DNA of 64,000 bases from Methanosarcina horonobensis HB-1 = JCM 15518 (lineage in GTDB: Archaea; Halobacteriota; Methanosarcinia; Methanosarcinales; Methanosarcinaceae), in the NCBI RefSeq assembly GCF_000970285.1, contig NZ_CP009516.1:4319036-4383035 (forward strand), in the 5' to 3' direction. The notes beneath the pieces were generated by a model. That model ran no database searches, was not told the origin of the DNA, and was given only the letters and a program-made list of their open reading frames with translations. The translations under genes were made by a program, and so were the position numbers. Every line of letters starts with the position of its first letter. The stretch's first letter is position 1. Shown one piece after another: positions 5,797 through 9,790 of this stretch.

Positions 5797-6516
5797 TTAA
5801 AACAGATCCAGAACCGCTTCAGGGCTTTCAAGTACAGTGATTCCCTGCAGCCCTTTTACAATCTCAACGTTTCTCATATCCACGTCCCTGACAAGGACTT
5901 CAACAGGCCCGCCCTTGATGGCATTGTAAGGACACAATTCCTTGCAGATCCCGCAGCCTTTGCATTTCAAAAGTTCTATCTGGTCTGTGATGCCGTCTTT
6001 TTCAGTGATTGCGCCGTGAGGGCAGTTTTCCCGCGGGGGGCAGGTTTCACAGTGCCTGCATTGTTTCCTGTCAATATTGTAGGGCATTTCAGATATGATC
6101 GAGCCTTCAATATCCACAGGAACGATATAGACCGGGACCCTTCCTTTCACAGCCTGTGCAACGGCATTGGTTACAAGGGAATCGGCAATCCCATAAGCTA
6201 TTTTTGAAACCGTGTTTGAAGTTGCAGGGGTAACGAAGAGGGCATCATATCTGTCAAGAAGAAAACGTCCGACTTTGGGGGAACTTGAACCCTGCTCGGT
6301 TTCCCGGAAGATTTCCTCAAGGTAGTCTCCTCCCGAGATTTTCACAAGCTTTTGTTCAAGCCCGTACATCCTGAGCACCTCTTCAGCTGCCCTGGAAATA
6401 TAAGTGTTTACTGAAAGTTCGGGGTTCCTGCGTTTGAGTTCTTTAAAGACCTGGTAACTGCGATTCAGGAAATGACCTGCTCCTGTAATACCCCATGCAA
6501 TGATCTGAAAGCTCAT
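5797..6516 (-). CDS. dmrX: Dihydromethanopterin reductase (acceptor), iron-sulfur flavoprotein
   Basis: Reduces dihydromethanopterin to tetrahydromethanopterin, the C1 carrier of methanogenesis, using an unidentified electron donor. The 239-aa protein has an N-terminal flavoprotein fold (WGITGAGHFL near residue 8, then FVTPATSNTV for FMN) and a ferredoxin-like C-terminal half. Cysteine motifs are CRHCETCPPRENCPH (about residues 163-177) and CKGCGICKELCP (about 194-205), enough for two [4Fe-4S] clusters. This layout matches the archaeoflavoprotein/DmrX family characterised in M. mazei. It lies last in a minus-strand cluster after DUF447, CitG-like and marker-9 genes, which supports a pterin role. 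Confidence 0.85.
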   Translation of the reverse strand: MSFQIIAWGITGAGHFLNRSYQVFKELKRRNPELSVNTYISRAAEEVLRMYGLEQKLVKISGGDYLEEIFRETEQGSSSPKVGRFLLDRYDALFVTPATSNTVSKIAYGIADSLVTNAVAQAVKGRVPVYIVPVDIEGSIISEMPYNIDRKQCRHCETCPPRENCPHGAITEKDGITDQIELLKCKGCGICKELCPYNAIKGGPVEVLVRDVDMRNVEIVKGLQGITVLESPEAVLDLF

Positions 6517-6585
6517 GAAAAGAAGTCATGCCTAGAGAGATAATATAATTTTCTAAAACAGAACAATCGGAATGAAAAAGAAAAC

Positions 6586-7224
6586 TCAAAGCCCGAGAAC
6601 TTCATAAAGCAGTTTCATAGCTTTCTTTTCAGCATCGCCACCGCATTTGGAAGCAAGGGACTCATAGTGCGTTATCCAGTCAAGGTATTTTTCTTCTCCA
6701 GAAAGCTGGTAACGGGTTGCGTGAACAGTAGCCTCAATCACGGCGTTAAATCCTCTATTGGGCACAGGAAGCTCTTTTCTGTTAAGTTCGTTAAATCCCG
6801 CATTTATGGGAACGAGATCTGCAACAAGCGCTTGATCCGTATTTTTAATATTTATGCATTCGAAAACAACCCAGGATACGGCTTCTTTAAGGATCGGAAA
6901 CTTAAGCCCGCCTGAAATTACATACTCAAATTCTGAAGGTTCAAGGTCGAAGAAAGTCGAGCGCACAAAGAGCAGGGAATCATAGACAACGTTTGAAACC
7001 AGGTATCTCTCTTTAAGGACATTTGCCCAGGTATGGCTGCCTTTGAAAAGGCGGACAAAAGGTCTTCCGCCCTTTGTGATAATACCTATCGGAGCGGCAT
7101 TCGGGTATTCAAAGCCTGTACTCACTATTACCTCGGAAATTCCCTCCCTGATCCCGAATGAAGGAAGGTCGATAGCATAGTGAGGTTTTTCAAGTTCCCT
7201 GCAGTCAGAAGAGAATCCGGTCAA
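6586..7224 (-). CDS. DUF447 family protein
   Basis: Protein of 212 aa matching the DUF447 pattern: a split-barrel flavin-reductase-like fold with EVIVSTGFEYPNAAPIGI near residue 31 and a TWANVLKERYLVSNV segment. Function is not established. DUF447 genes accompany tetrahydromethanopterin genes in methanogens and in methylotrophic bacteria (from memory, the orf9 group), so a part in pterin cofactor synthesis is plausible. The start overlaps the stop of the CitG-like gene by 4 bases, so the two are probably co-translated. dmrX follows after 69 bases. Confidence 0.8.
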   Translation of the reverse strand: MTGFSSDCRELEKPHYAIDLPSFGIREGISEVIVSTGFEYPNAAPIGIITKGGRPFVRLFKGSHTWANVLKERYLVSNVVYDSLLFVRSTFFDLEPSEFEYVISGGLKFPILKEAVSWVVFECINIKNTDQALVADLVPINAGFNELNRKELPVPNRGFNAVIEATVHATRYQLSGEEKYLDWITHYESLASKCGGDAEKKAMKLLYEVLGL

Positions 7225-8276
7225 AATCTCAAGCCTCCGAGAAGGGCAATAAAAAGCCCTGCAATAATTATATCTGCAGTAGAGCCGGGATTAATCCTTT
7301 TTTCCAGGAGCTCGGAGTCAAACTCCTGTACTTTGGGAAGGATGGAGGCAAAGTCCCTGGCTGTTTTCCCTGAAGCTTCCCAGCCTAAAAAAATTTCGCC
7401 TGCTCTGGAAGAAACATAATCTGCAGTTTCGGTATCAAACTTGGTCTGGATAAAGGTATCCCTGTGCCTTGAAAGCAGTTTAAGGAAAGTGTATACTACA
7501 GCCTCATTGATTCCTGTGCCAGAACAGCTGGAAACCGAACCCCCGGTCAAAGCTTCTTTTCCGCAGTTTCGTGACTGCATAAACTCAAGGATGCTTTTTG
7601 CTCCCTCAAGGCAGCGCCCGAACCCAGAGGTCCACTCGTTTGCGATCAGGTCATATCCTCTGGCGATCTCCATAAGGGAGTAAAGAGTAACATTCTGTTC
7701 CCTTAGATCGGCAGTTGCTTCAGGGTCTTTGAGGTCAAATTCATCCACATTATTTACCCTGACTCCTGCGTGCCCGAAAGCCCTGTAGAACTCAACAGCA
7801 TCTTCACAATCAGTTGCCCGGACAAGAGAATGTGCACGGGAAGCAAGTTCCTCAAATTCCTCTGCCTCAAGCCGGAAACCTGCTTTTCCGCAGCGAACCT
7901 GTTCTTTTTGTTCTCTTGAAAGTTCGCCTGCAGCCATTGCCAGAGGGACCAGGAGTAAAAAAGCCCCGAAATGGGTGTTTCCTCCCTGCTGCCAAGTAGA
8001 GCTTTCGTAAACCGCACTCCTGAGAAGCAGTCCTATCCTTTCCGTGCTCTTTGCAGCAAGCTCAAGAACAGGATAGACGGAAACCGAAGAGGCAACAAAA
8101 TGCTCAAAACATGTATCAGGATAGTTATGTTCCCTGTCAACATTCCCTGGCTTAGGAGAAGCCGATACCTCAAGCAGCATGGCAAGCTGTGCACAGCGCG
8201 CGATCATGCTCGGGGTAAAGGACTCTCCTGACCATTCAGAAGTATGGCAGGAGAAAACAGTATTAGTGGGATTCAT
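7221..8276 (-). CDS. CitG/MdcB-like triphosphoribosyl-dephospho-CoA synthase family protein
   Basis: Member of the CitG family (COG1767), 351 aa. The family motif SPKPGNVDREH is at about residues 40-50, and GGNTHFGAFLLLVPLA follows near 98. Bacterial CitG makes the 2'-(5''-triphosphoribosyl) prosthetic group from ATP and dephospho-CoA for citrate lyase, but no citrate or malonate lyase is seen here. Methanogen copies sit beside pterin genes, so a related phosphoribosyl transfer in tetrahydromethanopterin synthesis is more likely; that is inference. It overlaps the marker-9 gene upstream by 14 bases and DUF447 downstream by 4. Confidence 0.8.
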   Translation of the reverse strand: MNPTNTVFSCHTSEWSGESFTPSMIARCAQLAMLLEVSASPKPGNVDREHNYPDTCFEHFVASSVSVYPVLELAAKSTERIGLLLRSAVYESSTWQQGGNTHFGAFLLLVPLAMAAGELSREQKEQVRCGKAGFRLEAEEFEELASRAHSLVRATDCEDAVEFYRAFGHAGVRVNNVDEFDLKDPEATADLREQNVTLYSLMEIARGYDLIANEWTSGFGRCLEGAKSILEFMQSRNCGKEALTGGSVSSCSGTGINEAVVYTFLKLLSRHRDTFIQTKFDTETADYVSSRAGEIFLGWEASGKTARDFASILPKVQEFDSELLEKRINPGSTADIIIAGLFIALLGGLRF

Positions 8277-9402
8277 TTACCGGAATCCTGGCGTGGTCAA
8301 GGATATATTTTGCCAGCTGTTCTTTAAGCTTCATGTATTCTGCATCGGATAGATCGAGAGTGTTCAGTACACCGTCCCTGATCCAGCAGGGCTTTGTAAT
8401 CTTACAGCACCAGACAAGGCTGCCGAAACAGGTATCTTCTCCGAACTCGAGCATTGTGCCCCTGGCGAATTCCATTTTAGTTCTGGCGAACTCTTCTGCG
8501 GTGTATCCCAGCTTTCTGAACTTCTCATGCACAGGGCAGGGCTTTACCGGAAGGCAACAGAAAGCCAGAGCTCTGAAGTCTCCTTCACTGCAAACGTGCT
8601 TGGGAGCATTATACCAGCCTATTGACTCCTGATAAGAAGTGACACTTTCTACAAGTTCCTTTATCAGCTCAGGGTTTTCCATGGCACCTCTTGCAACAGA
8701 GACCATGTCGGCTCCCCGGGAAAACATGTCCTTTGCCGCGGCAAAGTCAGTAACCGAATTGTTGCCTATAAGGAAGAGCCTTGTAGCATCCCTGTAGCTT
8801 GTGATCGCATCAAGATCGGCTCCAAAGCCTTCGAGCATGGCATCCACATGGATAATGTCAGCCCCGGCCTTATCAATAAGCCTGGCAAGTTTGACATCAT
8901 CTACTACATTTGCTCTTACCTTTACGGAAAGCACAACTCCGGTCTCTTTTATTGCCTTTATCCAGGCAGAGAGTCTTGGGAGGTCGCGCAAAAGGGCTTC
9001 ACCTATGCCTGCCTCAAGCATTTCAGGCTGCTTGCAGTGGGCATTTAGTTCAAGGATTGCCCCTTCTTCCTTTACAAGCTTTGCAGCTTCAATCAAAGGC
9101 TCAAGGGTGGTGCTTCTTACGTTTACAGCAACAGCGCTTCCGGAGGTTACTGCCCGAATTTCCTTTTTTATAAGCTCCAGAGGTTCGTCGGAAATGAACT
9201 CTTTCCTGCCCCGGGCTACAAGGTCTGATGCAACTTTCATAGACCCCTTATCCAGATTGAAGGCTCCGAGTACTACGAGCCCGGCATCACCTGCATACTG
9301 GTTGGCAAAGGCGCTGTCGGCAATTCCTGCCATAGGTGCCAGTGCAATAGGATTTCTAAAACGAACATACCCAATATGCAAATCAAATAGACAATCACTC
9401 AT
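8263..9402 (-). CDS. Methanogenesis marker 9 protein, dihydrouridine-synthase-like
   Basis: Protein of 379 aa with an N-terminal TIM-barrel like that of dihydrouridine synthases and dihydroorotate dehydrogenases (FRNPIALAPMAGIADSAF, residues about 15-32; NNSVTDFAAAKDMFSRGADMVSVARGAM for the flavin phosphate site). The C-terminal third is cysteine-rich (CSEGD, FCCLPVKPCPVH, CFGSLVWCCKITKPC), the domain I recognise as methanogenesis marker 9. Family function is unknown; a flavin- and Fe-S-dependent reduction is likely. First gene of the minus-strand cluster that ends in dmrX. Confidence 0.8.
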   Translation of the reverse strand: MSDCLFDLHIGYVRFRNPIALAPMAGIADSAFANQYAGDAGLVVLGAFNLDKGSMKVASDLVARGRKEFISDEPLELIKKEIRAVTSGSAVAVNVRSTTLEPLIEAAKLVKEEGAILELNAHCKQPEMLEAGIGEALLRDLPRLSAWIKAIKETGVVLSVKVRANVVDDVKLARLIDKAGADIIHVDAMLEGFGADLDAITSYRDATRLFLIGNNSVTDFAAAKDMFSRGADMVSVARGAMENPELIKELVESVTSYQESIGWYNAPKHVCSEGDFRALAFCCLPVKPCPVHEKFRKLGYTAEEFARTKMEFARGTMLEFGEDTCFGSLVWCCKITKPCWIRDGVLNTLDLSDAEYMKLKEQLAKYILDHARIPVNESH

Positions 9403-9790
9403 GTTTTACCTCTTAAAAATAAGCATGGAAACTGAACACAAAAATGATAGTTATAGTCAGATATTAAACTAACGAATTTTTTAAGCTTATGAGAATCTTT
9501 TTTCAAAGAATTCGCGAGAATGGAAAATCCATCTTATTTTCACGATTACAATACATATATATTAATATTTGGGAATACCTCCAGGAACGCAAAAGTTATA
9601 TAGAGTACGCGGAAGAAATGCACCTGCTTAATTCAGACCCTTAGAGAACTGAAACTAGCCAGAAAAATCAACCCGAATTTGATAAAGGTGTTCTGACCAT
9701 AAGCTCTTTTCAGTCGATTCCCCTGTATAGAAATATCCTCCCATAAATATATATAGCATCAAAAAATAGATAGAGCCAGCTAGTCAGTAA
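9403..9790 (+). promoter_or_regulatory. Promoter region of rnpB with two TATA-like sites
   Basis: A strong TATA-like element (ataaatatatatag, about 9744-9757) lies roughly 30 bases before the RNase P RNA, the spacing expected for an archaeal promoter. A second TATA-like run (aaaagttatatag, about 9591-9603) lies 190 bases upstream and could belong to an unseen short transcript. The region also holds the promoter of the divergent marker-9 gene. No open reading frame of note is present. Confidence 0.5.

Follow-up and report, generated by a model that had tools for sequence, protein, structure and literature searches.

A CitG-like protein and a DUF447 protein are candidate side-chain enzymes of tetrahydromethanopterin-type cofactors

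Introduction

Methanogenesis and much of methylotrophy use tetrahydromethanopterin (H4MPT) as their folate-like one-carbon carrier. The synthesis of its side chain has so far been partly assigned to genes, and a 2011 survey counted seven unknown proteins for H4MPT synthesis (PMC3087415). We examined a 64,000-nucleotide stretch of the Methanosarcina horonobensis genome (hereafter, the window) containing a cluster in which genes for a methanogenesis marker 9 protein, a CitG-like protein and a DUF447 protein precede dmrX. The earlier note, made from the DNA alone, had read all four genes as likely a single pterin-cofactor set, which raises the question of which of them belong to the H4MPT pathway and which steps they might catalyze.

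Results

The gene cluster and its conservation

On the minus strand, the cluster runs head to tail from marker 9 (8263-9402) through the CitG-like gene (7221-8276; 351 aa, PF01874) and the DUF447 gene (6586-7224; 212 aa, TTG start, PF04289 and PF20766) to dmrX (5797-6516; 239 aa), which encodes dihydromethanopterin reductase (acceptor). Marker 9 and the CitG-like gene overlap by 14 bases (8263-8276), the CitG-like and DUF447 genes by 4 bases (7221-7224), and 69 bases (6517-6585) separate DUF447 from dmrX, all exactly as the earlier note had described. In the region upstream of the cluster (9403-9560, minus strand), a ribosome-binding-like site, AAGAGGT, lies just before the ATG at 9402; a sigma-70 scan for promoters and terminators there, with archaeal promoters outside its scope, found no excess over shuffled sequences.

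The DmrX protein, composed of a flavoprotein domain (PF02441) and a ferredoxin-like domain (Fer4), scored 407.7 bits against TIGR02700 (cut-off 251.35). Of 137 Halobacteriota genomes searched, 129 carry both the CitG-like and the DUF447 gene, and in 116 of these the former is the immediate upstream neighbor of the latter in the same orientation, a degree of adjacency that indicates more than a chance pairing. The link between dmrX and DUF447 is less general: of 81 loci, many of which are truncated by contig ends, 3 (L062, L078 and L111) have dmrX on the DUF447 strand no more than 300 bases away.

Marker 9 probably stands apart from the pathway

The marker 9 protein exceeded the cut-off of the methanogenesis marker 9 model TIGR03277 (183.6 bits against 96.2). 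It consists of a Dus-like, flavin-type TIM barrel (PF01207, about residues 1-255) followed by the cysteine-rich methanogenesis marker 9 domain (262-369), and a fold search with its structural model returned dihydropyrimidine dehydrogenase, Dus and dihydroorotate dehydrogenase among the matches. The view of marker 9 as methanogen-specific stands for the C-terminal domain and fails for the barrel, given that Natrinema carries, near its CitG-like and DUF447 genes, a barrel lacking that domain.

Among the 137 Halobacteriota genomes, the Dus-like barrel was matched in 95 and undetected in 42, and it lies just upstream of the CitG-like gene in 71 of the 91 genomes with both, a count based on 94 of the 95 barrel hits with one weak hit (G083) left out. 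Despite this adjacency, presence and absence led us to reject membership of marker 9 in the set: the three genomes devoid of mptG, CitG-like and DUF447 all retain the barrel, and no marker 9-type gene is annotated in the bacterial H4MPT clusters examined. Marker 9 is by position co-transcribed with its neighbors, yet is presumably not required for the H4MPT side-chain pathway.

Archaeal distribution relative to mptG and mch

In Halobacteriota, mptG, CitG-like and DUF447 are all present in 128 of 137 genomes, with mptG counted in 133 genomes at E 0.001, 126 of them above the curated cut-off. Exactly one of the three is missing in 6 genomes, and the whole trio is absent in 3 (G026, G067 and G122), each 99%-complete and apparently haloarchaeal. 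The Thermoproteota (161 genomes) are more divided, with the whole trio in 54 and none of it in 78; for mptG, 66 of 117 hits were kept at E ≤1e-20, a threshold picked post hoc within a gap from 4.6e-23 to 2.6e-8. There, mptG is found in 57 of the 59 genomes with DUF447 (59 at E 0.001, 57 above cut-off; Fisher p 3e-31), and mptG or mch in 75 of the 77 with CitG (p 1e-31), p values that overstate independence because the genomes are related. When mch is not counted, mptG is present in 62 of the 77 genomes with CitG. The exceptions comprise 15 genomes with CitG but neither mptG nor DUF447 (13 of which have mch), 8 with CitG and mptG without DUF447, 3 with DUF447 and mptG without CitG, 2 with DUF447 alone, 1 with mptG alone and 6 with mch but none of the trio. 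In Sulfolobus acidocaldarius and Haloferax volcanii, used as search controls, both CitG-like and DUF447 are present.

Gene neighborhoods in Thermoproteota point the same way. Of the 57 genomes with both DUF447 and mptG, 20 have the two side by side and 38 have them within 15 kb of each other. One locus (L160) reads DUF447, mptG, dmrX and a gene for a pterin-binding DUF6513 protein, and another (L161) combines DUF447, a dmrX-like gene, the dihydropteroate-synthase-like TIGR00284, mptE-like, mptG and mptA-like genes. In some Thermoproteota, a gene with a nucleotidyl-transferase-like motif adjoins CitG. Co-occurrence and adjacency thus place CitG-like and DUF447 in one pathway with MptG (beta-RFAP synthase, TIGR00144), to which they are unrelated as proteins and whose step comes earlier.

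Bacterial plasmids and H4MPT islands

The bacterial test of co-occurrence was made on plasmid records. Among 72,556 plasmids, the bacterial-type CitG-like and DUF447 searches matched exactly one identical set of 35 records, all of which also belong to the 44 records with mptG and to the 36 with mch; the claim that these genes accompany H4MPT genes in bacteria lacking methanogenesis is therefore upheld in 35/35 plasmid records. The order flavoprotein-DUF6513-DUF447 recurs in four bacterial clusters, and mch is followed by one gene (a RimK-type ligase, annotated as hypothetical in Azoarcus), CitG-like and fae. In Methylosinus, the H4MPT island is given as mch-orf5-orf7-fae and orf19-orf20-afpA-orf21-orf22 (PMC3615186), so that CitG-like occupies the place of orf7, an equation resting on gene order only. 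Orf7 and the DUF447 gene of the bacterial island are among the closest known counterparts of the window genes. Genes of the mfnB, mfnE, mfnF and orf17 types are also found in these bacterial clusters, though not each one in every stretch. The phyletic profile against mptG and mch, with co-occurrence in Halobacteriota, Thermoproteota and plasmids, bears out the idea that CitG-like and DUF447 serve an H4MPT-type cofactor.

The CitG-like protein is related to, but distinct from, CitG and MdcB

The CitG-like protein matches PF01874 (E 1.9e-74), the Pfam family that it has in common with CitG and MdcB, but falls far under the cut-offs of both equivalog models, with 45.9 bits against TIGR03125 (CitG, cut-off 272.3) and 34.9 bits against TIGR03132 (MdcB, cut-off 282.35). 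In the tree, the root of which serves for drawing only, five CitG/MdcB sequences form their own clade on a long branch (support 100/100) that does not include the window protein. Core positions K42, G44, N100, G104, D273, P330, A334 and D335 are invariant in 29/29 sequences, these five included, a count that leaves out two long-branched 'weak' CitG rows of the tree, whereas G82, P111, D159 and A212 are fixed in the H4MPT-type CitG-like proteins. With core residues common to E. coli CitG and MdcB, the suggestion that CitG chemistry would suit a ribosyl step is a reasonable one. In a Foldseek search with the CitG-like model, matches at E ≤0.001 were confined to the three chains of 3h9p, and a second structural comparison gave Z 25.9 for 3h9p. 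Next came 13 ADP-ribosylhydrolase 3 entries (Z 4.2 for the best, with 179 residues aligned at rmsd 5.3), a match too weak for an all-helical protein to speak for or against a relation. A literature search for triphosphoribosyl-dephospho-CoA together with methanopterin found nothing.

The DUF447 protein and its possible flavin link

The DUF447 protein scored 102.6 against PF04289 (gathering score 24) and 75.3 against PF20766 (24.8), and is close to PDB 2nr4 and more distantly related to 2iml, 2ptf and 3b5m. By their titles, 2nr4, 2iml and 2ptf are presumably FMN-bound, although the PDB table itself lists no ligand. By sequence, the flavin link is weak: these are Pfam families distinct from the FMN split barrels of PF01613 (Flavin_Reduct) and PF01243 (PNPOx), neither of which the window protein matched at E 0.001. 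The homologue at L160 aligned with PF01613 over positions 9-152 of 153 at E 1.6e-5, its 25.5 bits lying below the cut-off of 27, and in a set of ten DUF447 proteins (A1) weak matches were found in 2/10 to PF01613 (best E 0.05) and in 2/10 to PF01243 (best E 0.0017). A literature search for DUF447 together with methanopterin found none; elsewhere, one paper ties DUF447, with DUF58, to cannulae (PMC13140500), and another only lists it, next to methanofuran genes, in a set of genes from insect symbionts (PMC9088363).

Discussion

Co-occurrence with mptG and mch, neighborhoods with mptG, mptA-like, mptE-like, TIGR00284 and dmrX, and the intact CitG core together show, by sequence comparison, a strong linkage of CitG-like and DUF447 to H4MPT-type cofactor synthesis. 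We consider both proteins probable side-chain enzymes, which would act after the mptG product (beta-ribofuranosyl-aminobenzene phosphate) and before the last reduction by DmrX.

CitG inverts a beta-N-riboside to an alpha-O-riboside and H4MPT carries an alpha-ribosyl unit; because these match, the CitG-like protein could be the alpha-ribosyl transferase, taking in ATP, releasing adenine and placing a triphosphoribosyl group in alpha configuration on the ribitol 5-hydroxyl, a proposal to which we give an about even chance. The reaction type would be that of CitG, triphosphoribosyl transfer from ATP, but the acceptor would be a pterin-ribitol rather than dephospho-CoA. Counting against this, White's work with extracts is said to name PRPP, not ATP, as the ribosyl donor. 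In methanogens, the 2-hydroxyglutarate hydroxyl could next displace the triphosphate, whereas bacteria making dephospho-H4MPT could instead remove it. A 2005 mutagenesis study of dephospho-H4MPT genes may already show mutant effects. The M. extorquens product is described as dephospho-H4MPT without phosphate and hydroxyglutarate (PMC8141765), and would retain the alpha-ribose. For DUF447, we offer more tentatively, and with some doubt, that as a putative split-barrel flavin protein it might act reductively on the mptG product, opening its ribofuranose ring to give the 1-deoxyribitol; this step would be a benzylic C-O cleavage aided by the para-amino group.

The linkage data settle the pathway rather than the step, and DUF447 is the closer companion of mptG (57/59, against 62/77 for CitG), both of which leave some room for action elsewhere in H4MPT synthesis. 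CitG-like could, for example, form another phosphoribosyl intermediate, and DUF447 could be a reductase on the pterin side, a carrier or an assembly protein; we think this rather unlikely, considering that the CitG core is intact in 29/29 and that the alpha-ribosyl unit is the known part of H4MPT needing such chemistry. To read all four genes as one pterin set, with marker 9 a further pathway reductase, would accommodate the barrel's position upstream of CitG-like, but is quite improbable given its retention in the trio-less genomes and its absence from detection in 42/137.

A role in making methanofuran or methylofuran, to which the mfn- and orf17-type genes in the bacterial clusters might point, is very improbable. 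Archaeal DUF447 adjoins mptG, and S. acidocaldarius and H. volcanii, which have both genes, are not known to have methanofuran. In addition, the methylofuran genes found by mutants are orf5, orfY and orf17 (PMC8141765), and we accordingly disfavor this role. There is hardly any likelihood that the CitG-like protein makes the prosthetic group of an acyl carrier as an ordinary triphosphoribosyl-dephospho-CoA synthase: although the PF01874 match and common core would fit, the equivalog scores and the separate CitG/MdcB clade speak against CitG proper, and its neighbors are marker 9, DUF447 and dmrX, with citrate lyase genes and citX absent beside it, unlike E. coli citG, which adjoins citX.

Returning to CitG-like and DUF447 as side-chain enzymes, a wider reading, which we regard as rather unlikely in its entirety, is that the CitG fold was at work in making cofactors earlier than in citrate lyase, with a triphosphoribosyl transferase that uses ATP building the alpha-ribosyl unit of methanopterin-type carriers. 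Its triphosphate would provide the activation needed to form the phosphodiester to hydroxyglutarate, with a nucleotidyl-transferase-like partner, as in the pairing of MdcB with MdcG. It would follow that haloarchaea such as H. volcanii, regarded as relying on folate alone, still make a methanopterin-like carrier, since they keep mptG-like, CitG-like, DUF447 and mch genes, and some haloarchaea lose mptG, CitG-like and DUF447 together. Against the side-chain reading itself, haloarchaea are reported as folate users, and HVO_2628 is not considered a genuine mptG (PMC8305020).

These findings narrow two open steps of H4MPT side-chain synthesis to two named families, with substrates and products to look for now named for CitG-like and DUF447, and leave marker 9 no longer among the likely candidates for the pathway. 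Moreover, they question the view of haloarchaea without methanopterin-type synthesis (PMC8305020).

Organization of the gene cluster

In the window, four minus-strand genes lie head to tail: marker 9 (8263–9402), which encodes a Dus-like barrel with a cysteine-rich C-terminal methanogenesis marker 9 domain; a CitG-like gene (7221–8276); DUF447 (6586–7224); and, last, dmrX (5797–6516), for dihydromethanopterin reductase. The figures given in the earlier note, overlaps of 14 and 4 bases and then a gap of 69 bases, are exact. Given the long intergenic stretch upstream of marker 9 and the plus-strand orientation of the flanking genes beyond dmrX, the four genes look like a single transcription unit. 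PDB 2nr4, presumably M. mazei MM1853, closely resembles the DUF447 protein. This genome also has two genes for beta-RFAP synthase, mptG, with near-equal scores (G000:C1:594856–595797 and 4660368–4661306; loci L010 and L011), one of them next to Nop5 and fibrillarin genes.

Co-occurrence with methanopterin genes

We searched 137 Halobacteriota genomes, at least 90% complete, with models for DUF447, CitG and mptG, obtaining matches at E 0.001 in 132, 131 and 133 genomes, respectively. All three genes were found together in 128 genomes and were wholly absent from three (G026, G067 and G122), whereas G043, G092 and G139, from the same genus as G122, retained the trio. Single genes were missing in the remaining cases: DUF447 in G034 and G111, CitG in G086, G096 and G106, and mptG in G099. 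Where both genes occur in Halobacteriota (129 genomes), the CitG-like gene lies immediately upstream of DUF447 in 116. Of 14 named controls, only M. jannaschii, H. volcanii, S. acidocaldarius and M. acetivorans gave matches to DUF447 and to mptG; CitG was matched in these four plus E. coli. The H. volcanii control holds an mptG-like gene, CitG, DUF447 and mch, a gene set that runs against the published view (PMC8305020) that methanopterin-specific synthesis is absent in this species and in haloarchaea.

The claim that CitG-like and DUF447 genes accompany H4MPT genes in bacteria held up on plasmids. Queried with the proteins of an Aquabacterium olei plasmid, 72,556 plasmid records yielded 35 with CitG-like and 35 with DUF447, the two sets being identical; mptG matched 44 records and mch 36, each set including all 35. 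The E. coli CitG query matched 132 records, with no overlap with the 35 among the 30 matches listed. In the clusters read from Azoarcus, Azospirillum oryzae, Thiodictyon and Phyllobacterium, the CitG-like gene lies between fae and the gene in the orf5 place, a RimK-type ligase (annotated as hypothetical in Azoarcus); in Aquabacterium it follows the same ligase. In Aquabacterium, Azoarcus, Azospirillum oryzae and Phyllobacterium, DUF447 immediately follows genes for a DUF6513 protein and a flavoprotein.

Across 161 Thermoproteota genomes, with mptG counted at E <= 1e-20, where the values leave a wide gap, the trio was complete in 54 and entirely missing in 78. mptG was present in 57 of the 59 genomes with DUF447, and mch in none of the DUF447 genomes lacking mptG; 75 of the 77 genomes with CitG had mptG or mch, and of the 15 with CitG but no recognizable mptG or DUF447 (e.g., G284, G206 and G275), 13 had mch. 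On these patterns, DUF447 travels with mptG as a single unit, and CitG acts as another within the same cofactor system. The CitG-only genomes presumably have either a diverged mptG or a different route to the arylamine. Six CitG-only proteins were placed in the tree, and two of them group with proteins from genomes holding the full trio. Separately, six genomes (G160, G163, G184, G187, G242 and G248) have mch but no mptG (E 1e-20), CitG or DUF447, and stop codons interrupt mch in G160.

Gene neighborhoods in Thermoproteota

Of the 57 Thermoproteota genomes with both DUF447 and mptG, 20 have the two side by side on one strand and 38 have them within 15 kb; CitG is next to DUF447 in 14 of 54. 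At locus L160, DUF447 is followed in order by mptG, a DmrX scoring above the cut-off of TIGR02700, and a pterin-binding DUF6513 protein. At L161, where DUF447 scores 26 bits against a cut-off of 24, the 8 kb past it encode DUF1464, a DmrX-like protein that falls short of the cut-off, a dihydropteroate-synthase-like protein (TIGR00284), and MptE-like, MptG and MptA/FolE2-like proteins; the DUF1464 gene (PF07318; L161:5133–6308) overlaps the end of DUF447 inside this H4MPT cluster. At L154, the contig with a DUF447-CitG pair also carries mptG, flanked by genes for an MptE-like protein and a GTP cyclohydrolase.

In five of six CitG-only loci read, a protein of ~340 aa with a nucleotidyltransferase-like motif is encoded within ~3.3 kb of CitG, directly downstream or one gene off on the same strand in three (L164:3333–4352, L166:3853–4878 and L167:4205–5236) and nearby in L163:8999–10006 and L168:8050–9087. 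One of two tested matches the PF01909 nucleotidyltransferase model (E 9.6e-5), the motif in the others having been spotted by eye. The arrangement is reminiscent of the MdcB-MdcG pair, a likeness we offer as a lead only.

Marker 9 is uncoupled from the trio

The earlier note had placed marker 9 in the same set, which was not borne out: all three trio-less Halobacteriota genomes keep the barrel, and 42 of the 137 gave no match to the TIGR00736 model. The bacterial stretches read carry no annotated marker 9 gene. The barrel adjoins the CitG-like gene in 71 of 91 Halobacteriota genomes with both, and in Natrinema a barrel lacking the C-terminal domain sits near CitG-DUF447. Marker 9 is best treated as a neighbor with its own role. 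Its barrel, well modeled (pLDDT 89), resembles DPD, Dus and dihydroorotate dehydrogenase. In Methanothrix the barrel is shortened while the cysteine-rich domain is nearly invariant (alignment A4), so the latter may be the working part.

Proposed steps in side-chain synthesis

The CitG reaction uses ATP to form an alpha-linked riboside and releases adenine; the ribitol of H4MPT bears an alpha-ribosyl phosphate. Eight CitG-family positions are identical in all 29 sequences compared (24 of the H4MPT type and 5 CitG/MdcB), an agreement that speaks for an intact ATP-handling core. The window's protein, like the one bacterial and one CitG-only protein tested, scores well under the cut-offs for CitG and MdcB, which together make up a clade of their own on a long branch; the acceptor is therefore expected to differ. 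M. extorquens dephospho-H4MPT is described in PMC8141765 as lacking the phosphate and hydroxyglutarate; if the ribose is kept, such bacteria would need the CitG-like enzyme as well. The gene is present in the bacterial H4MPT clusters read.

DUF447 is weakly similar in sequence to flavin reductases. Opening of the ribose to ribitol is the only known side-chain redox step between MptG and DmrX, which makes it a natural, if unproven, assignment for DUF447.

Among the papers searched, none joins either DUF447 or triphosphoribosyl-dephospho-CoA with methanopterin. A 2005 mutagenesis paper reportedly dealt with dephospho-H4MPT genes and may already give phenotypes for these, so the bacterial link to the pathway may already be known. 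This analysis adds the proposed assignment of steps, the finding that some Halobacteriota lack the whole trio together, the exact match between the plasmid sets and the separation of marker 9 from the trio.
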